Shown here: one piece after another, positions 4,940-61,730 of the stretch | Position numbering within the stretch: position 1 is the first letter of the stretch | Layout: the number at the start of each line of letters is the position of its first letter | Assembly: GCF_007474545.1 (NCBI RefSeq) | Contig: NZ_VKOG01000001.1 | Location: forward strand, 1,054,001 to 1,118,000 | Reading direction: 5' to 3' | Source: Chryseobacterium binzhouense | GTDB taxonomy: Bacteria > Bacteroidota > Bacteroidia > Flavobacteriales > Weeksellaceae | DNA length: 64,000 nucleotides | Position numbers and translations under genes: made by a program | The notes under the pieces: model-generated | The model's database searches: none | The model's input: only the letters and a program-made list of their open reading frames with translations | Told to the model about the DNA's origin: nothing

Positions 4940-6463
4940 ATGTTTAGAGACGGAGCAAGAAAAAGTGCTTGGCAGGAAGAAATAAAAAGATTTTCTTCTG
5001 TGAAAGTAAATTCAGATCATATTAAATTTGACGTTATTATTGCAGGTGGCGGAATTACAGGGATTTCGACTGCACTGCATCTTCAGAAGCTAGGGAAAAA
5101 ATGCCTTCTTATAGAAGCTTCAAATATCGGATTTGGTACAACAGGCGGAACAACCGCTCATCTCAATACTTTTTTTGATACTACTTTTGATGAAGCAATC
5201 AGCAAATACGGTGAAGATCAGGCTAAGTTGCTGGCCGAGGTTGGGAAGGATGCTATTGCAATTATTCAGAATAATATTGCGGCACATGAGATTGATTGTG
5301 ATTTTGAGACAAAATCGGGATATGTTTTTGCTCTGGATGATGCACAGAATAAAAAGCTGGAGAAAATGGTAGAAGGCTCAAAAAAAGTAGGCGTAAATAT
5401 GGAATTTTGTAAGGGAATTTCGTTTCCTGTTCCGTTTATAAGTGTTGCTATGGTTCCTAATCAGGCTCAGTTTCATCCGGTGAAATATATCAAAAAACTA
5501 GCAGAAGCGTTTATTTCTTCAGGCGGTACTATATTAGAAGATTGTATCTGTATAAGCCATCTTGAAGAAGATTCCACTATTACTGTGAAAACTTCTCAAG
5601 GCGAATTTAAGACAGAGAATCTTGTTTACGCCACTCATACGCCACCCGGAGTCAATATTCTTAATATGATGACGGCTCCTTACAGAAGTTATGCAATAGC
5701 TTTCGAAATTAAAGATAATAAGTATTCTGACGATCTGATTTATGATCTGGAAGATCCTTATCATTATTACCGAACCCATATTATCAATGGACAAAAACTT
5801 CTCATTGCAGGTGGTGAGGATCACAAAACAGGGCATGAGGATACGGGAGTCTGTTTTTCAAACCTGGAAAACTATGTTAGAAAATATTTTGATGTAGGAG
5901 CAGCGGCATACAGTTGGTCAAGTCAGTATTACGAATCGGTAGACGGCTTGCCTTTCATAGGAAAACTGCCCGGAAGCATCGGAAATGTTTTTACGGCAAC
6001 AGGTTTTATGGGTAACGGAATGATTTTCGGAACCATCAGTTCGCAGGTTATTGGTGATTTAATTATCAGAAAAGAAAATAAATATGAAAAGCTTTTTGGT
6101 CCGGGAAGAGTGAGACCTGTTTCAGGCTTTAGTGATTTTGTAAAAGAAAATGCAACATCAGCATTTGATTTTATTAAAGATAAGCTCTTTATGACAAAAA
6201 TCGACAGTCTTGCGGAAATAAAAGATGGTGAAGCTAAAGTAGTGAAGTATGAAGGTGAATCTTATGCCGTTTACAAAGAATCTTCTGACAAGATTCATGT
6301 ACTCAAAAGTACCTGTCCTCATACCCGCTGTGAAGTACGGTGGAATTCCGCAGAAATAAGCTGGGACTGCCCTTGTCACGGCTCCAGATTCTCTGTAAAC
6401 GGAAGACTTCTTACTGCGCCCTCTACCCAGGATTTGCAGAGAATAATGCTGGATGATAAGTAA
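4940..6463 (+). CDS. FAD-dependent oxidoreductase with C-terminal Rieske [2Fe-2S] domain
   Basis: A 507-residue fusion. The N-terminal part is a DAO-type FAD oxidoreductase with a dinucleotide-binding GGGITGIS motif at about 35-42 and a second FAD-contact region GFMGNGMIFG near 355. Residues about 420-505 form a Rieske domain whose ligands are visible as Cys-Pro-His (CPHTRC) and Cys-Pro-Cys-His (CPCHGSRF). This arrangement resembles ferredoxin-like FAD/Rieske proteins beside stress genes in other Bacteroidota and Bacilli. The electron acceptor and substrate are unknown. It is cytoplasmic, with no signal peptide. It probably shares a transcript with the SDR upstream and the unknown gene downstream. 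Confidence 0.85.
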   Translation: MFRDGARKSAWQEEIKRFSSVKVNSDHIKFDVIIAGGGITGISTALHLQKLGKKCLLIEASNIGFGTTGGTTAHLNTFFDTTFDEAISKYGEDQAKLLAEVGKDAIAIIQNNIAAHEIDCDFETKSGYVFALDDAQNKKLEKMVEGSKKVGVNMEFCKGISFPVPFISVAMVPNQAQFHPVKYIKKLAEAFISSGGTILEDCICISHLEEDSTITVKTSQGEFKTENLVYATHTPPGVNILNMMTAPYRSYAIAFEIKDNKYSDDLIYDLEDPYHYYRTHIINGQKLLIAGGEDHKTGHEDTGVCFSNLENYVRKYFDVGAAAYSWSSQYYESVDGLPFIGKLPGSIGNVFTATGFMGNGMIFGTISSQVIGDLIIRKENKYEKLFGPGRVRPVSGFSDFVKENATSAFDFIKDKLFMTKIDSLAEIKDGEAKVVKYEGESYAVYKESSDKIHVLKSTCPHTRCEVRWNSAEISWDCPCHGSRFSVNGRLLTAPSTQDLQRIMLDDK

Positions 6464-10235: not shown

Positions 10236-11711
10236 ATGATTAACGGAGTTATTTTTCAGTTTTTTCACTGGTATCATGAGGGCGATCTCTGGAATGAATT
10301 TGCAGAAAAGGCATCATATCTGAATGAATTAGGAATAACGGCTGTTTGGCTGCCGCCTGCAACAAAGTGTTTTCTTGGTACGGAGGGAAGGGGTTATGAT
10401 GTTTACGATCATTATGATTTGGGGGAATTTTTCCAGAAAGGAACGGTGAGAACAAGATACGGAACTAAGCAGGAATATCTTAATGCTATTCAGAAAGCAC
10501 ACGAGTGCAACATTCAGGTATATGCCGATGTGGTGTTAAATCATAAAATGGGCGGTGATAAAACTGAAAGCGTAACTGTGCATGAAGTTGATGCTGAAAA
10601 CCGGACTCAGAAAATAGGAAATCCTTTTCAGGCGGAAACTAAGACATATTTTAATTTTCCAGGCAGAAACGGAATGTATTCTGATTTTGTATGGGATTAT
10701 CAATGTTTTAGCGGAATTGATATTATTAAAGTAAACGGAGAAGAAAAAAAAGGAATTTTTAAGATCCACAATAATTCCGGCACCGAATGGGATGATTCTG
10801 CAAGTCACCAGTTCGGAAACTATGACTATCTCATGGGTGCAGATGTTGAATATCGAAACCCTGAAGTAGCAGAGCAAGTAAAAAACTGGTTAAAATGGTA
10901 TTTGGACCTTACCAAAGCAGATGGTATAAGGCTGGATGCGCTTAAGCATATTTCATCAGATTTCCTTATACAACTTATTGATTTTATTAAGAATGAAATT
11001 AATGAAGATTGTTTTATAATAGGTGAGTACTGGAAAGATAAGCCTGATATGATGTCTGCTTTTTCGGAAAAGATTAATCATCAGATTTCATTGTTTGATG
11101 TGCCTCTTCATTACAATTTTCATGAAGCTTCAAAAAAATACAGTAAATATGACCTGCGAACAATTTTAAAAAACAGCTTTTTAGAAGAGCATGCCCGGAT
11201 TTCTGTATCATTTGTTGAAAATCATGATACACAGCCTTTGCAGGGATTAGAATCTTCGGTTAATGAATGGTTTAAACCTTTAGCTTATGCGATAATATTA
11301 CTTATGGAAAAGGCATATCCGTGTGTTTTTTATGCAGATTTTTATGGAGCTGAATATTGTGATGCTAAAGATGGCGCAATTCAGAGAATAACATTAAACA
11401 AAGTTGAAATTCTTCCGAAATTACTTGAAGCCAGAAAGAGATTTGCTCTGGGCAACCAGATCAATTATTTTGATCATCCCAACTGTATCGCATGGCTTAG
11501 AAAGGGGAGTGATATCTCTTTATCCTGTCTGGTTATTATTTCTAATGGTAATGTTGATCGAAAAGCAATTACCCTTGGAAGCTGTTTCGGCAAAAGTAAA
11601 TTTGTTGATTTTTTAGGTTACAGATCCGAAACTGTTGAGTGTGATGAAAATGGCAAAGGAACCTTCATGGTAAACCCCAAATCTGTAAGTATTTGGGTAA
11701 TGGAATCCTAA
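10236..11711 (+). CDS. Cytoplasmic alpha-amylase (GH13, AmyA type)
   Basis: A 491-residue glycoside hydrolase without signal peptide, close in length to cytoplasmic AmyA (about 495). The GH13 conserved regions are present in order: DVVLNHK (I), GIRLDALKH with the nucleophile Asp (II), IIGEYW with the acid/base Glu (III) and FVENHDTQ (IV). It hydrolyses internal alpha-1,4 bonds of maltodextrins or glycogen. It begins 12 bases after the CinA-SDR gene, an operon partner without an obvious metabolic link. Confidence 0.9.
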   Translation: MINGVIFQFFHWYHEGDLWNEFAEKASYLNELGITAVWLPPATKCFLGTEGRGYDVYDHYDLGEFFQKGTVRTRYGTKQEYLNAIQKAHECNIQVYADVVLNHKMGGDKTESVTVHEVDAENRTQKIGNPFQAETKTYFNFPGRNGMYSDFVWDYQCFSGIDIIKVNGEEKKGIFKIHNNSGTEWDDSASHQFGNYDYLMGADVEYRNPEVAEQVKNWLKWYLDLTKADGIRLDALKHISSDFLIQLIDFIKNEINEDCFIIGEYWKDKPDMMSAFSEKINHQISLFDVPLHYNFHEASKKYSKYDLRTILKNSFLEEHARISVSFVENHDTQPLQGLESSVNEWFKPLAYAIILLMEKAYPCVFYADFYGAEYCDAKDGAIQRITLNKVEILPKLLEARKRFALGNQINYFDHPNCIAWLRKGSDISLSCLVIISNGNVDRKAITLGSCFGKSKFVDFLGYRSETVECDENGKGTFMVNPKSVSIWVMES

Positions 11712-57632: not shown

Positions 57633-57840
57633 TTTCGTATTTTTGTTTATATACATATAACTTTTATGCCACAAATGGTATTTTTCAGTTATTTGTTAAA
57701 AATAATTGGTTCTTCGCCAAAACTGTGAAATGGGATTTTAAATATTTGTTTTAATAATCGGATATATTTATCAAATTCTGAATACGCTAGCTCTATGCAT
57801 ATTTTAGTGTTATCATTTAGATTTTTAATTCAGGGTTCAT

Positions 57841-57977
57841 AAATAACGGTTTAGGACTTTAAGTTCAAGCAGGAAATCGAAGCACAAAAGCTTGTATTAT
57901 TACTAAAGTTCAATTGAAAAACTGCAATTGAACTTTGTACTTCAGCCCGCCTGACGCAAAACCCTTGTTACCTGCCG
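57841..57977 (-). repeat. attC-like hairpin site A
   Basis: Read on the minus strand: GGCAGGTAACAAGGG (ending near 57963), inner GTCAGGCGGG, a perfect 12-bp inner stem AAAGTTCAATTG/CAATTGAACTTT (57905-57936), inner CCTG, then ACCGTTATTT. Outer cores TAAC and GTTA face each other as in integron attC sites. The stop codon of the 57968-58771 gene lies inside the first core (GCAGGTAAC). Confidence 0.6.
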
Positions 57978-58771
57978 TTTTTCTTCTGTCCATTTTGTAT
58001 TACTTCTATTTTCGTGTATCTAAAAACCTTTCCTTCTTCGTCTTTTTCAACTTTACCCAATTTCATTTTTGGAAATCCGTTTTCAGTTACAACTTGCCCT
58101 GTAACTTTAATAATTATGGGTAAATTTTCTCCATTGAAAAGTGTGTCAGCATTAATTAGCTTTTCCTTTGCTGGTTCTAACCAATAATTTTGTTTTCTGT
58201 TTTTATTTTCTGTTTTTCGAGTATCACTCCATTGAGCACAAGTACAAGAAATTGCATTGTAGATTAAAGTTAATGTTTCAACTTTACTGTTGGGTTTGAA
58301 GTTTGGATTGTCAATTACTTCAATTTTTGTATATCTAAAAACCTTTGCTTTCGGCATTGGTTCTTCCATTTCAATTGTTCCTTTAGGATAATCTTCTTTT
58401 TCATAAAATTGTCCTGTAACTTTAACTTTGTGTCTGTATGGTTGAAAATAAATCGGAATTTTTAATGTGCTATCTGCTGGTTCAATATAAAAATGTTTAT
58501 CAATAAATTTTGTAGTTGTATCTTTGATTTTAAGGTCTTTAGACTTTGTCCATTGAGGACAAGCACAACCCCAAATTGTGTATTCAATTTCTAAATTTTC
58601 AACTTTATCATTAAGTTTGTTAGTCGGGTCAGAAATTACTTTTGTGTAATTCTTCTCGACTTCTTTAGTCATTGTAACTTCATCAACTCTTTTTTTAGTT
58701 TCTGCCTGTCCACAAGAAATCAATATTAAGCTACAAAGTAAAATTGTCAATATGTTTTTATGTCTCATCAT
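57968..58771 (-). CDS. Lipoprotein with duplicated CxCxQW module
   Basis: A 267-residue protein with a lipoprotein signal (MMRHKNILTILLCSLILISC). The mature part holds two copies of one module: VENLEIEYTIWGCACPQW then VKVTGQFYEKEDYPKGTIEM and KAKVFRYTKIEVI, and VETLTLIYNAISCTCAQW then IKVTGQVVTENGFPKMKL and EGKVFRYTKIEVI. Each copy has a Cys-x-Cys-x-Gln-Trp motif. An upstream open extension lies in the hairpin site and is not counted. Family not recognised; periplasmic or outer-membrane location is likely. It is the last unit of the cassette array. Confidence 0.75.
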   Translation of the reverse strand: MMRHKNILTILLCSLILISCGQAETKKRVDEVTMTKEVEKNYTKVISDPTNKLNDKVENLEIEYTIWGCACPQWTKSKDLKIKDTTTKFIDKHFYIEPADSTLKIPIYFQPYRHKVKVTGQFYEKEDYPKGTIEMEEPMPKAKVFRYTKIEVIDNPNFKPNSKVETLTLIYNAISCTCAQWSDTRKTENKNRKQNYWLEPAKEKLINADTLFNGENLPIIIKVTGQVVTENGFPKMKLGKVEKDEEGKVFRYTKIEVIQNGQKKNGR

Positions 58772-58797
58772 TTTATTTGGTGTGTCGCTCAGAAATT

Positions 58798-58935
58798 GCA
58801 GGTAAGGTTCTACGGCTTTGCGATGTGACGGCTTTTTAGCACAAAAATTCAACAGAATTACTGCTGTTGAACCTTGCACAAATGTTTCATAGAAGCACTT
58901 CCGCCGCTATATTGCCAAACCGGTGTTAGCGGTAG
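58798..58935 (-). repeat. attC-like hairpin site B
   Basis: On the minus strand it runs from CTACCGCTAACACCGG to CATCGCAAAGCCG and CTTACCTGC. The centre holds a perfect TTCAACAG/CTGTTGAA stem (58848-58871). The outer arms pair imperfectly, as in attC sites with extrahelical bases. It follows the GyrB-like gene and precedes the lipoprotein gene. Confidence 0.55.
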
Positions 58936-58949
58936 TTATTTTCATTTCG

Positions 58950-59960
58950 TTAATACATTCCACTTTTCAATTGTGTTGTGTCAAACCGCCAAAGAAACTT
59001 ATCTGCTTTTTCCTTTTGGTTGTTAAAAAAGTCTAAAGCTAATTTTTTCACCAACTTTTTAGCTTCTTTCTTTACTACAGCATCTTCTAATGTTTCTTTC
59101 CAACTACCACCATATTTGTAATCTTCTCCACGAACAGCACAAATAAGAATAAGTCCGTTTACGAATTTCTTTTTATTGATTTTATAGGTAGTCAAGTTGT
59201 TTTCTTTTGCATAAATTTTACAGGCATTTATTAAGCCTTCTAAAATTCCATTAACCAATGAACCACCACAAATAGTGTAAACATTGTTTGCAAAACTTAT
59301 AACGTTTGCTGATGGAAACCAGTCTGTGCGATATGCAAGACCTATTTGATATTTGTTAGAATTTATCTTATTGTCAAATGTTAACTTAAATTCTGGTTTC
59401 CCTAAAACCTCTGTTGTTGCAAGGTCGAACAAATAGAAAACACCTTGTGGATAGTGATAATAGTTTTGAGTTAAATATTTCTGTCTTTTGTCAATTGTAA
59501 TTACTTCGCATTGTCGGTTTAACAAAGCAAATTGTAACACTTTTTCGGTGAGTTTTAAGTAGTCAATATTTGTGTTTGAAATTACTGTTTTGTCAAATGA
59601 AAAGGCAACTTCTGTTTTTGAATTCTCTTTGGTTATTATCTCAAATGTCTCTGAAACGATCTTGAGAACCTTAGGGAAATAATTTGAGAACTCTTTACTT
59701 ACATCCGTGAACTGTTTAATAAATGGATTTATGTCGTGCCGTGATGTCAGCCCGAAAGTAAAGTCGTTTTCCCCTGATATTATTATTTCAAAAGTGATTT
59801 CGTCAGTCTTACAAAGTTTAATGCAGTCTGTTAATAGTCCTTCAAAAAGTCCAACAATACCGTCATTGCCGATATACATAAAAGGTCGTTTCCTAACGTG
59901 TTCTGAAAAATTAAGAACTTTTATGTCGTCAGAGGAATATTTATTGTCTGTGTCTGTCAT
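58950..59960 (-). CDS. GyrB-like protein lacking ATP-binding motifs and TOPRIM
   Basis: A 336-residue protein. Residues 10-31 (IKVLNFSEHVRKRPFMYIG) match the N-terminal arm of DNA gyrase subunit B. Residues about 215-310 (SANVISFANNVYTICGGSLVNGILEGL, then KKFVNGLILICAVRGEDYKYGGSWKETL) match its transducer domain, including the lysine of the ATP-contacting loop. Between them the GHKL motifs are gone: VVDNSxDEA is replaced by LLTDCIKLC and DNGRGIP by LTSRHDINPF. There is no TOPRIM or C-terminal domain. It cannot be a working gyrase subunit; a role in sensing or modulating topoisomerases, or defence, is possible. Start taken at MTDTDNKYSS. Confidence 0.75.
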   Translation of the reverse strand: MTDTDNKYSSDDIKVLNFSEHVRKRPFMYIGNDGIVGLFEGLLTDCIKLCKTDEITFEIIISGENDFTFGLTSRHDINPFIKQFTDVSKEFSNYFPKVLKIVSETFEIITKENSKTEVAFSFDKTVISNTNIDYLKLTEKVLQFALLNRQCEVITIDKRQKYLTQNYYHYPQGVFYLFDLATTEVLGKPEFKLTFDNKINSNKYQIGLAYRTDWFPSANVISFANNVYTICGGSLVNGILEGLINACKIYAKENNLTTYKINKKKFVNGLILICAVRGEDYKYGGSWKETLEDAVVKKEAKKLVKKLALDFFNNQKEKADKFLWRFDTTQLKSGMY

Positions 59961-59966
59961 TATAAT

Positions 59967-60103
59967 GGCTTGTAACGTTTTGGGGCTTTGCGAATGTGGG
60001 GAAATTGAAGCACATATGTTCAATTTAGAACAAATGATGATTAGAATTCCAATGCTCAAATTTAGCACAAATGCCCCACTTTTGCAAAACCCCTGTTATA
60101 GCC
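59967..60103 (-). repeat. attC-like hairpin site C
   Basis: The clearest of the three sites. On the plus strand GGCTTGTAACG pairs with TGTTATAGCC, GGGG (59982-59985) with CCCC (60090-60093), TTTGC (59987-59991) with GCAAA (60084-60088), and GTGGGG (59996-60001) with CCCCAC (60074-60079). Single unpaired bases on one arm and a variable central loop fit attC architecture. Confidence 0.65.
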
Positions 60104-60110
60104 AGTGCTT

Positions 60111-61364
60111 TTAGTTCATAATTGATTCATATAGTTCATTTTCAAAATTTTCTCGTCCCATCTTTTCGGCAATTTCACTTGCCTTTAATTTGTATTTTTT
60201 GTTCTCTAATAAATCTACAATAAGAGGTTTTAAATTTTGTTCAGTGATTTTATTTATAGCTACCCCTTTTGGACCTAAGTCTTTTTTTGCTATTAAATTA
60301 TTCCAACCGAATTGGTCAAAAATATGGGGTAAAATCATTGAAACGCAACCATACTTTATACTGCTGTGAGTTGTTCCCGAACCACCGTGATGTATAATCC
60401 CATAACATTTTTCCAAAACCCAATCGTAGGGGATTTGCTTTGTAAAATAAAATAAGTCGTTTTTTTTAAACTCTTCCAGTTGGACTAGACCACCCGCAGC
60501 AAGGTTAATAATAGTTGGAACTTTCAGTTGGTTAAGTACATTTAAGATAGTTTGAGTGGTCTTTTCTGGATTTGAATTAATCATACTTCCAAATGTCAAA
60601 AACAGTATTTTCGTATGTTTTTTTGTAAACTGTATAATCATTTCGTCAGGTAGCCAATCCATTTTTTTATCTCTCTCGTGGTATCCTAAAACCTGAACAT
60701 TTGAAGTCCAATTCGTAGGTTTGGTAAATAATGAAGGTGATATAGCATATATTAATTTTTCTGAAAACAACTTCTCTTTTATTACATTTTTAGTTACTTT
60801 ATTACTTGTGGATGGTAGTATTTTTTGTGCGTCATAAATGGTTTTTACAAGTCCAAAGTTGGCGATTTTGTATGTTAATTTGTTTATGAACTCTCCATAG
60901 TAAAAACTAAACCCTGTATGTCCGAAACCTTTTACATAGTGAATGAAATATGGAATAGGGCTTATTAAAACTATTTTTTTACCTGTTGATAAATTCCATA
61001 GTAAAGGATAATTGCATTTTCCATTATGTATGACTAGTTCAGGCTCTTCGGTTTTTAAAATATTGAATTGTTCGATTACCAATATTTTATTGACAGTCAT
61101 TCCTTCTTTGTAAAGCCTTACGATTGCATTCAATTTTTTTAATCCCATAGAACCACCCATTACAATTTTTCCATCTTCTCCTTCAATAAGGTCTAAAAAT
61201 CTGGAAGTAAAACCATAGCTTTTAGCATTGTCTGGCATCAAATGATTGTATTGTTCTGGAAAGGCATAAGTAATACTATGCCCTTTTTTAGATAGAATTT
61301 CTCCAATTGCCAAAAAAGGTTCAATGTCTCCACGTGTTCCAATTGACATTAATAGTATTTTCAT
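60111..61364 (-). CDS. UDP-glycosyltransferase-like protein (GT1/MGT type)
   Basis: A 417-residue glycosyltransferase of the GT-B fold. MKILLMSIGTRGDIEPFLAIG at the start is the acceptor-domain signature (GTRGD-P) of sterol and macrolide glucosyltransferases. The donor-binding region HHGGSGTTHSSIKYGCVSMILP and FDQFGWNNLI correspond to the HHGGAGTT/PxxxDQxxWA motif. It adds a sugar from a nucleotide donor to a small lipophilic acceptor, possibly an antibiotic or lipid; the acceptor is not readable. Start set at MKILL (61364); an upstream extension crosses the cassette junction. First unit of the array. Confidence 0.85.
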   Translation of the reverse strand: MKILLMSIGTRGDIEPFLAIGEILSKKGHSITYAFPEQYNHLMPDNAKSYGFTSRFLDLIEGEDGKIVMGGSMGLKKLNAIVRLYKEGMTVNKILVIEQFNILKTEEPELVIHNGKCNYPLLWNLSTGKKIVLISPIPYFIHYVKGFGHTGFSFYYGEFINKLTYKIANFGLVKTIYDAQKILPSTSNKVTKNVIKEKLFSEKLIYAISPSLFTKPTNWTSNVQVLGYHERDKKMDWLPDEMIIQFTKKHTKILFLTFGSMINSNPEKTTQTILNVLNQLKVPTIINLAAGGLVQLEEFKKNDLFYFTKQIPYDWVLEKCYGIIHHGGSGTTHSSIKYGCVSMILPHIFDQFGWNNLIAKKDLGPKGVAINKITEQNLKPLIVDLLENKKYKLKASEIAEKMGRENFENELYESIMN

Positions 61365-61404
61365 TCTTCGGTGTTGTTTTTTAGCATTGGCTATAACGTT
61401 TACA

Positions 61405-61458
61405 TTGACGCATTGCGTCAAACTATCAATAAACTCTGGTATTGACGCAATTCGTCAA
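61405..61458. promoter_or_regulatory. Twin TTGACGC palindromes at the array edge
   Basis: TTGACGCATTGCGTCAA (61405-61421, perfect 8-1-8 palindrome) and TTGACGCAATTCGTCAA (61442-61458), centres 37 bases apart. They stand directly outside the first cassette junction (61389-61397) and 41-94 bases upstream of the glycosyltransferase start. They may be repressor sites, or recombinase-binding repeats of an attI-like site. The rest of 61459-61736 shows nothing recognisable. Confidence 0.5.
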
Positions 61459-61730
61459 TCCAAATTATCAATTCTCAAATATAAAAAAAACAATTCAATA
61501 AAAAATTGCGGTTTTCCGTAATTAATTTTATACTTCATGGGTGTTAATGAGTTATTAAATTAATTAATGGGATGAAATAACTGATGATTCCTTAATCCGG
61601 ATTTTTTTTATCAAATTTCCTTAATGCCTCCGTTTTCTGTGTCGAGACAAATCCAATCAATAATAATTTAATTTTCATATTTTTTGGTGAAAAGCTAAAC
61701 AGTTTAATAATTTTTTAAAACTTTTCAAAA

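Follow-up and report, generated by a model that had tools for sequence, protein, structure and literature searches.

Cassettes, hairpin sites and unit ends at the locus

We analyzed a cluster of three minus-strand genes in Chryseobacterium binzhouense that resembles an integron cassette array. The cluster lies in a 64,000-nt stretch of the genome (NCBI RefSeq assembly GCF_007474545.1, contig NZ_VKOG01000001.1, positions 1,054,001 to 1,118,000 of the forward strand); this whole stretch is called the window below and supplies the coordinates of its features. A preliminary description, made from the sequence alone, had reported three genes with a downstream hairpin each, and this arrangement was borne out: three cassettes span positions 57847-61396, each closed by an imperfect hairpin of 136-137 nt. 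Gene 1 (57968..58771) encodes 267 aa from its ATG, with a lipoprotein-like start as judged by eye, and its product has no Pfam match. Gene 2 (58950..59960) encodes a 336-aa protein with a DNA gyrase B-like domain. The product of gene 3 (60111..61364) is a 417-aa glycosyltransferase with a Glyco_transf_28 N-terminus and an EryCIII-like C-terminus.

The attC-like hairpins on the plus strand were scored with a model, R1, built from an alignment of 62 sites that includes these three: site A (57839-57975), the last in the array, scored 97.7 bits, site B (58798-58933) 84.2 bits and site C (59968-60103) 122.3 bits. The earlier statement that the inner arms pair save for single mismatches or bulges does not extend to site A, whose inner arms are degenerate. 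The stop codon said to lie inside a core is the TAA of gene 1, found within the TAAC core of site A. Single-strand DNA folding gave z scores of -2.44 (A), -1.67 (B) and -4.13 (C) on the plus strand, opposite the genes, and of -2.52, -0.52 and -2.79 on the gene strand; B and C therefore fold better on the plus strand, the folding strand of site C, and A equally on both. Since site B folds weakly by itself, its family membership is taken from the R1 score.

Each gene and its site form a minus-strand unit. In unit 3 (gene 3 and site C, 59976..61396), GTT-ATAGCCAGTGCT and ATAGCCAATGCT are complementary over 12 of 12 nt, provided that position 8, where G/A forms a G.T pair, is counted. The ends of unit 1 (gene 1 and site A, 57847..58805), ACCTGCCGTTTT and ACCTGCAATTTC, are complementary except at positions 7 and 12. 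In both units, the start had been recognized as the inverse of the outer arm of the unit's own site, and the match proved longer than claimed. The ends of unit 2 (gene 2 and site B, 58806..59975), AGCGGTAGTTAT and ACAAGCCATTAT, are mismatched at positions 2-7 and agree at 1 and 9-12, with G/A at 8; the unit may be old or the product of a fusion.

The array starts at an attI-like site, overlooked in the preliminary description, that occupies 61397..61527 on the minus strand and was recognized by a pattern match, with TTTGACGCAATGCGTCAATGTAAACG then TTATAGCC across the junction. It includes two TTGACGCA..CGTCAA repeats (61404-61421 and 61441-61458), and no recombinase gene lies beside it. Beyond the attI-like site, the earlier picture also lacked the 12-nt extent of the unit ends with their G.T pair and, as described below, the evidence on the strand, the recombinase and the wide distribution of the system.

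A family of hairpin sites in Bacteroidota

A probe pattern derived from sites B and C matched 70 of 148 family genomes, with up to 21 matches per genome; its reversed control matched 28 of 148 by hand count, with at most two per genome. In a phylum-wide survey that scored eight candidates per genome, R1 sites (E <=0.001) occurred in 167 of the 395 Bacteroidota genomes sampled, or about four in ten, and in 92 of 170 genera. Genome G110 alone has 44 sites within 40 kb at one locus. In related genomes, the hairpins thus reappear next to unrelated genes, the recurrence on which the cassette proposal had been staked.

Sequence variation in the alignment tracks the predicted stem. Among 1487 stem cells, 96.5% pair, compared with 85.2% after shuffling and 43-53% in slid alignments. 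Changes on both sides of a pair were counted in 123 stem cells, against 33.2 (s.d. 4.4) in shuffles, with none of 500 shuffles reaching the observed value; they are present in 11 of 24 stem pairs. On the modelled ‘bottom’ strand (the plus strand of the window), cells outside Watson-Crick pairing comprise 218 G.T and 17 A.C, which points to the bottom strand as the folding strand. The longest open reading frame of at least 100 aa lies opposite this strand in 185 of 193 units and on it in eight. The sites thus appear to be imperfect palindromes that fold as the bottom strand. A C.A mismatch is conserved in them, and a bulge of 4 nt stands on one side; these features may or may not correspond to the extrahelical bases and unpaired central spacer of known attC sites.

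As one hairpin stands 3' of every gene, the sites might instead be conserved terminators or regulatory RNA structures between horizontally acquired genes, with no part in recombination. We regard this as very improbable: the wobble bias assigns the fold to the strand that does not carry the genes, no Rfam family reached the gathering threshold in the window, and the complementary unit ends, AACG breakpoints, attI-like junctions and linked recombinase described below would go unexplained.

The sites do not have the classical attC core RYYYAAC...GTTRRRY. Among 252 sites, GTT is present in 244 and AAC in 231, with GTTRRRY in six and RYYYAAC in three, in line with the departure from the textbook cores seen earlier in the window. 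A scan of viral contigs with one exact 26-base site pattern gave no matches, a search that diverged viral sites could escape.

A subclass of R1 sites measures ~196-202 nt and bears a long extra loop hairpin on arms and cores of the same family. R1 matches of this subclass include L054 1570-1767, L055 6966-7161, L058 645-841 and L088 1512-1709, among others.

Complementary unit ends and independent movement

To describe unit ends as a class, we used 252 of 358 R1 matches, which define 211 adjacent same-strand units in 29 genomes; opposite-strand shadows and end-cut, weak or unlisted matches had been removed by hand. The two ends of a unit match at a mean of 6.05 of 7 bases, compared with 3.3 for the flanks of one hairpin within an array and 3.15 for random pairs, which places the proposed end match above chance across the class. 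The own-unit match exceeds that of the in-situ hairpin in 181 of 210 comparisons, with 11 ties, and 170 of 211 units reach at least 6/7. Pairing stops after 12 nt beyond AAC/GTT: in these 170 units, which were selected on the first seven positions and are free of selection at positions 8-12, it is 0.84-0.93 at positions 9-12 and at chance or lower at position 13. Position 8 is G/T in 151 of the 170 and C/T in 15. Such complementary ends are the expected trace of an insertion in which the unit's own site is cut in its outer stem, as happens in integrons.

Because a protein search found no homologue of gene 2 outside its own genome (1 of 148 family genomes), evidence for mobility was drawn from other units. 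Twenty pairs of the 211 units show homology across 60% or more of their length; in 14 of these pairs the two units come from different genomes, and identity is 93.5-100%. Homologous units share neighbors in none of 30 comparisons. Identity edges were compared in 17 of these pairs, and three could not be read; some units were reused, so the pairs are not independent. In 13 of 17, the left edge is no more than 3 nt away from the AAC that belongs to the unit's own site, and the right edge lies between the AACG of the next site and 3 nt past it in 11 of 17. As for the remaining right edges, three continue into a similar next site and three belong to pairs with non-aligning lengths or site positions. 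These patterns suggest that cassettes move singly, with breakpoints that fit an exchange within AACG and place the exact cut coarsely.

attI-like junctions and a linked tyrosine recombinase

In relatives, a tyrosine recombinase gene adjoins an attI-like junction, either divergent from or codirectional with the array, and this dedicated enzyme answers the earlier suggestion of a divergent recombinase. Between a divergent recombinase gene and the first cassette, 11 of 13 loci have a junction in which TTGACGCAATGCGTAGATTTGGATG is followed by TTAGCGGC; L083 and L084 have a different one, AACAATG followed by TT. A second recombinase family, of 347-373 aa, is oriented toward the array, and at all six of these codirectional loci we found a further junction type resembling CATATAAnNAAG followed by TT. 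The attI pattern is mildly specific, with 12 matches in 541,776 bases against 2.5 expected. From these junctions, an attI site would appear to adjoin the recombinase gene where the first cassette is joined.

Right after attI, and also after later sites, stands a gene-less unit of ~172 bp, TTGGGAAAAATCG ... CGATTTTTCCCAACGG ... GAGCTGGCCG (L269 12919-13090, 15014-15185 and 17395 on; L086 ~5050-5240). It looks like a mini cassette consisting of a GC-rich site alone.

We scanned ten recombinases against profile families. With TIGR02249 (cut-off 265), nine scored 183-210 bits in two pieces, with the integron integrase (IntI) insert missing between them. With NF040815 (cut-off 220), all ten fell below the cut-off, nine of them at 201.5-219.8 bits; the tenth, from L092, scored 161.9 bits and is of another kind. 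Aligned with IntI4 (2a3v), the L079 recombinase splits at 178/200 against 177/242, leaving ~43 IntI residues without a counterpart, whereas archaeal XerA (5hxy) aligns throughout. The best Protein Data Bank matches of L079 are XerA (131 bits), IntI4 (130.9) and XerD (92). In a quick tree of 110 rows, array-linked sequences fall within one clade of 58 rows (SH-aLRT 90) and IntI in another (100), with the XerC- and XerD-like proteins of the source genome outside the array-linked clade.

Association was also assessed across the phylum. With recombinase profile A3 at E 1e-60 and five candidates scored per genome, sites and recombinase occurred together in 91 of the 395 genomes, sites only in 76, the recombinase only in 24 and neither in 204 (p 1e-21). 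The recombinase profile also retrieved 80 named loci, of which 63 had a usable open reading frame and 15 an R1 match (E <=0.05), some of them weak. All 15 site-bearing loci were taken to be Bacteroidota, as judged from their titles, and 11 of them are in the tree. The plasmid NZ_CP041688 of Chryseobacterium sp. SNU WT5 combines one recombinase with five sites, and its record names the enzyme ‘site-specific tyrosine recombinase/integron integrase’.

Single units with subterminal hairpins that move without an enzyme of their own are also what an IS200/IS605-type single-strand transposase, or elements resembling miniature inverted-repeat transposable elements with terminal hairpins, would produce. 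This origin seems highly unlikely to us, as the units all point the same way, head to tail, starting at an attI-like junction, their ends are unit-specific rather than element-specific, and a tyrosine recombinase recurs at array starts; no search for Y1 transposases was made.

In genome G082, of the same genus, L285 (6445-7278) holds a relative of the recombinase altered at conserved positions, with no R1 match in 12.5 kb. It is likely a decaying remnant.

Relation to integrons and Xer recombinases

The arrays share their general plan with integrons and with CALINs, which in the sense of IntegronFinder are groups of at least two attC sites without IntI. Units follow one another head to tail, each closed by a hairpin site at its 3' end, folding is biased to the bottom strand, breakpoints fall in GTT cores, attI lies beside a recombinase gene that is often divergent, and orphan arrays occur. 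Differences from integrons concern both sites and enzyme. The core is GTTRnnnGnnG instead of GTTRRRY, and most sites are 136 nt long with recurring loop motifs. The paired core of integrons comprises ~7 bases, compared with unit ends here that pair for 12 nt past the core with G.T at position 8. There are at least three attI-like consensus types, one recombinase family faces the array, and the array recombinase forms a separate clade without the IntI insert. For the integron side, we drew on the accounts of IntegronFinder 2.0 (PMC9024848), of bottom-strand folding and attC features in Unbridled Integrons (PMC8946536), of an integrase insert described as essential to integron function (PMC8138268) and of The Natural History of Integrons, which lists integrons in Bacteroidota (PMC8618304).

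Length and catalytic domain of the array recombinase resemble those of XerA, XerC and XerD. Unlike those proteins, the array-type genes are linked to arrays, and the XerC- and XerD-like proteins of the source genome group elsewhere. NF040815 is close by score, and the NZ_CP041688 member bears its name, but that family name implies no site, array or tested function for the array group.

These similarities leave room for an alternative in which the arrays are ordinary IntI integrons or CALINs with divergent attC sites, IntI is or was the enzyme and the linked recombinases are bystanders. The common plan of attI, array, 3' hairpin site and bottom-strand folding would fit, canonical IntI exceeds the cut-off in 105 of 395 phylum genomes, and in G152 three weak R1 matches occur close to an IntI. 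TIGR02249 alone misleads here, with sub-cut-off matches in every one of the 148 family genomes and in all but one of 14 controls; the array recombinases are set apart from such matches by their neighborhood and missing insert. No IntI above the TIGR02249 cut-off was found in any of the 148 family genomes, including G110 with its long array. At E 1e-55 (107 genomes), IntI and sites are negatively associated (both 33, site only 134, IntI only 74, neither 154; odds ratio 0.51). Of the 33 genomes with both, inspected by eye, one (G152) has a site within 20 kb of IntI, and 15 have a site at most that far from the new recombinase. Together with the scarcity of classical cores and the separate, insert-free recombinase clade, these data make the IntI alternative improbable, if somewhat less so than the two considered above. 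The linked recombinases neither exceed the TIGR02249 cut-off nor carry the IntI-specific insert and, by this test and that of the classical core, the window system is not part of the IntI integron family. Strong sequence evidence nevertheless indicates that it works like an integron.

We weighed two further claims of different reach. The window array very probably represents an orphan remnant of a capture system in Bacteroidota that resembles integrons. In this system, genes would travel singly as units with a ~136-nt hairpin site at the 3' end. A dedicated tyrosine recombinase of XerA/IntI type, encoded beside attI in other genomes, would join the folded hairpin strand opposite the gene (the ‘bottom’ strand) to attI or to a resident site, with exchange within the AACG/CGTT core. 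Insertion would split the outer stem of the site, leaving the halves of a 12-nt, unit-specific helix at both unit ends, and the source genome would have lost the recombinase gene and retained short arrays led by attI. Sequence itself supplies the site family with its structure and strand bias, the unit-end rule, the core breakpoints, the movement of single units, the attI-like junctions, the link to a distinct recombinase clade and the cassette turnover at the window locus. We infer the catalytic role of the linked recombinase, the folded single-stranded substrate, circular intermediates and the mode of cassette expression. The broader claim, which we hold to be probable with somewhat more reserve, is that Bacteroidota harbor a second class of integrons without IntI, defined by its own XerA-like clade without the insert regarded as essential in IntI, its own attI types and its own folded single-strand sites, in which one G.T pair marks a unit-specific outer helix of 12 nt.

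Several observations weigh against these conclusions. The recombinase tree comes from a quick search, with clade support of 90. Of the 167 site-bearing genomes, 76 have no recombinase at the cut-off with five candidates scored; these could be orphans of the kind seen in the window, or cases in which a recombinase went undetected. A different kind of recombinase lies near arrays at L092 and L043, and in the L270 region a tyrosine recombinase accompanies an IS91 transposase. Three weak R1 matches in G152 (L268 4780-6510) are within 6 kb of a canonical IntI at ~10335-11216; either IntI accepts similar sites or R1 detects its attC. Ends match at less than 6/7 in 41 of the 211 units, and unit 2 of the window departs from the unit-end rule. 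Finally, the outer helix is broken inside arrays, which speaks against a simple account of how resident sites would fold for excision.

A capture system with its own sites and recombinase family nonetheless looks widespread in Bacteroidota and separate from known integron machinery. We found no description of it in the literature searched, a scope that omits preprints and most subscription journals. If the system works without the IntI insert, it would show how folded single-strand recombination can arise from a Xer-type enzyme, and such arrays would form a reservoir of accessory genes.

Arrays of the source genome and turnover at the locus

The source genome (G000) has ten R1 sites, excluding one opposite-strand match, in six short arrays: the window array, C1:911928, C1 ~1049k, C10:60684, C10:151190 and C9 ~68.6k. 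All six start with an attI-like sequence, four recognized by pattern and two by their likeness to the attI region of the window. Sequence like the window attI occurs at C10:60684, C1:911928, C10:151190 (junction-adjacent part only) and the orthologous locus of the sister species G580. Profile A3 at E 1e-60 detected no array-type recombinase in the source genome. Direct score comparison agreed: those of its recombinases that were compared score at most 131 bits against array types, the top two being the XerD- and XerC-like proteins, and the lowest array-to-array score is 157. The window array is thus an orphan, as first proposed, and might still be served in trans, as was also suggested.

Comparison with relatives revealed cassette turnover. 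In G580, whose flanks are 89% identical, the attI region persists and one 2.64-kb unit replaces the three cassettes. This unit encodes a protein of 853 aa that has helicase domains of restriction type (ResIII, DEAD) and a sub-cut-off HNH match; its ends follow the rule (ATATGCCGTTTT and ATATGCCATTTT), and its own site is cut short. In G603 (80%), the flanks lie 247 bp apart, compared with 4.1 kb in the window, and attI and site were not seen; in G583 (77%), the flanks are separated by 496 bp, and neither similarity to attI nor an R1 match was found. The three genes are therefore not a vertically conserved block, the pattern that would have spoken against cassettes: G580 has another cassette at the attI, and G603 has neither attI nor cassette. 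The flank was matched in 93 of 99 genus genomes and, in all but G000 and G580, the locus match begins only near or inside a TonB-like gene.

Within a plasmid array, L269 18534-19850 is annotated as a group II intron reverse transcriptase. In Flavobacterium aciduliphilum (L175 11055-17819), genes that match a cytosine methylase, HaeII restriction endonuclease and an Eco57I-type methylase lie beside and between sites, and phage-defence genes may be abundant among array contents.

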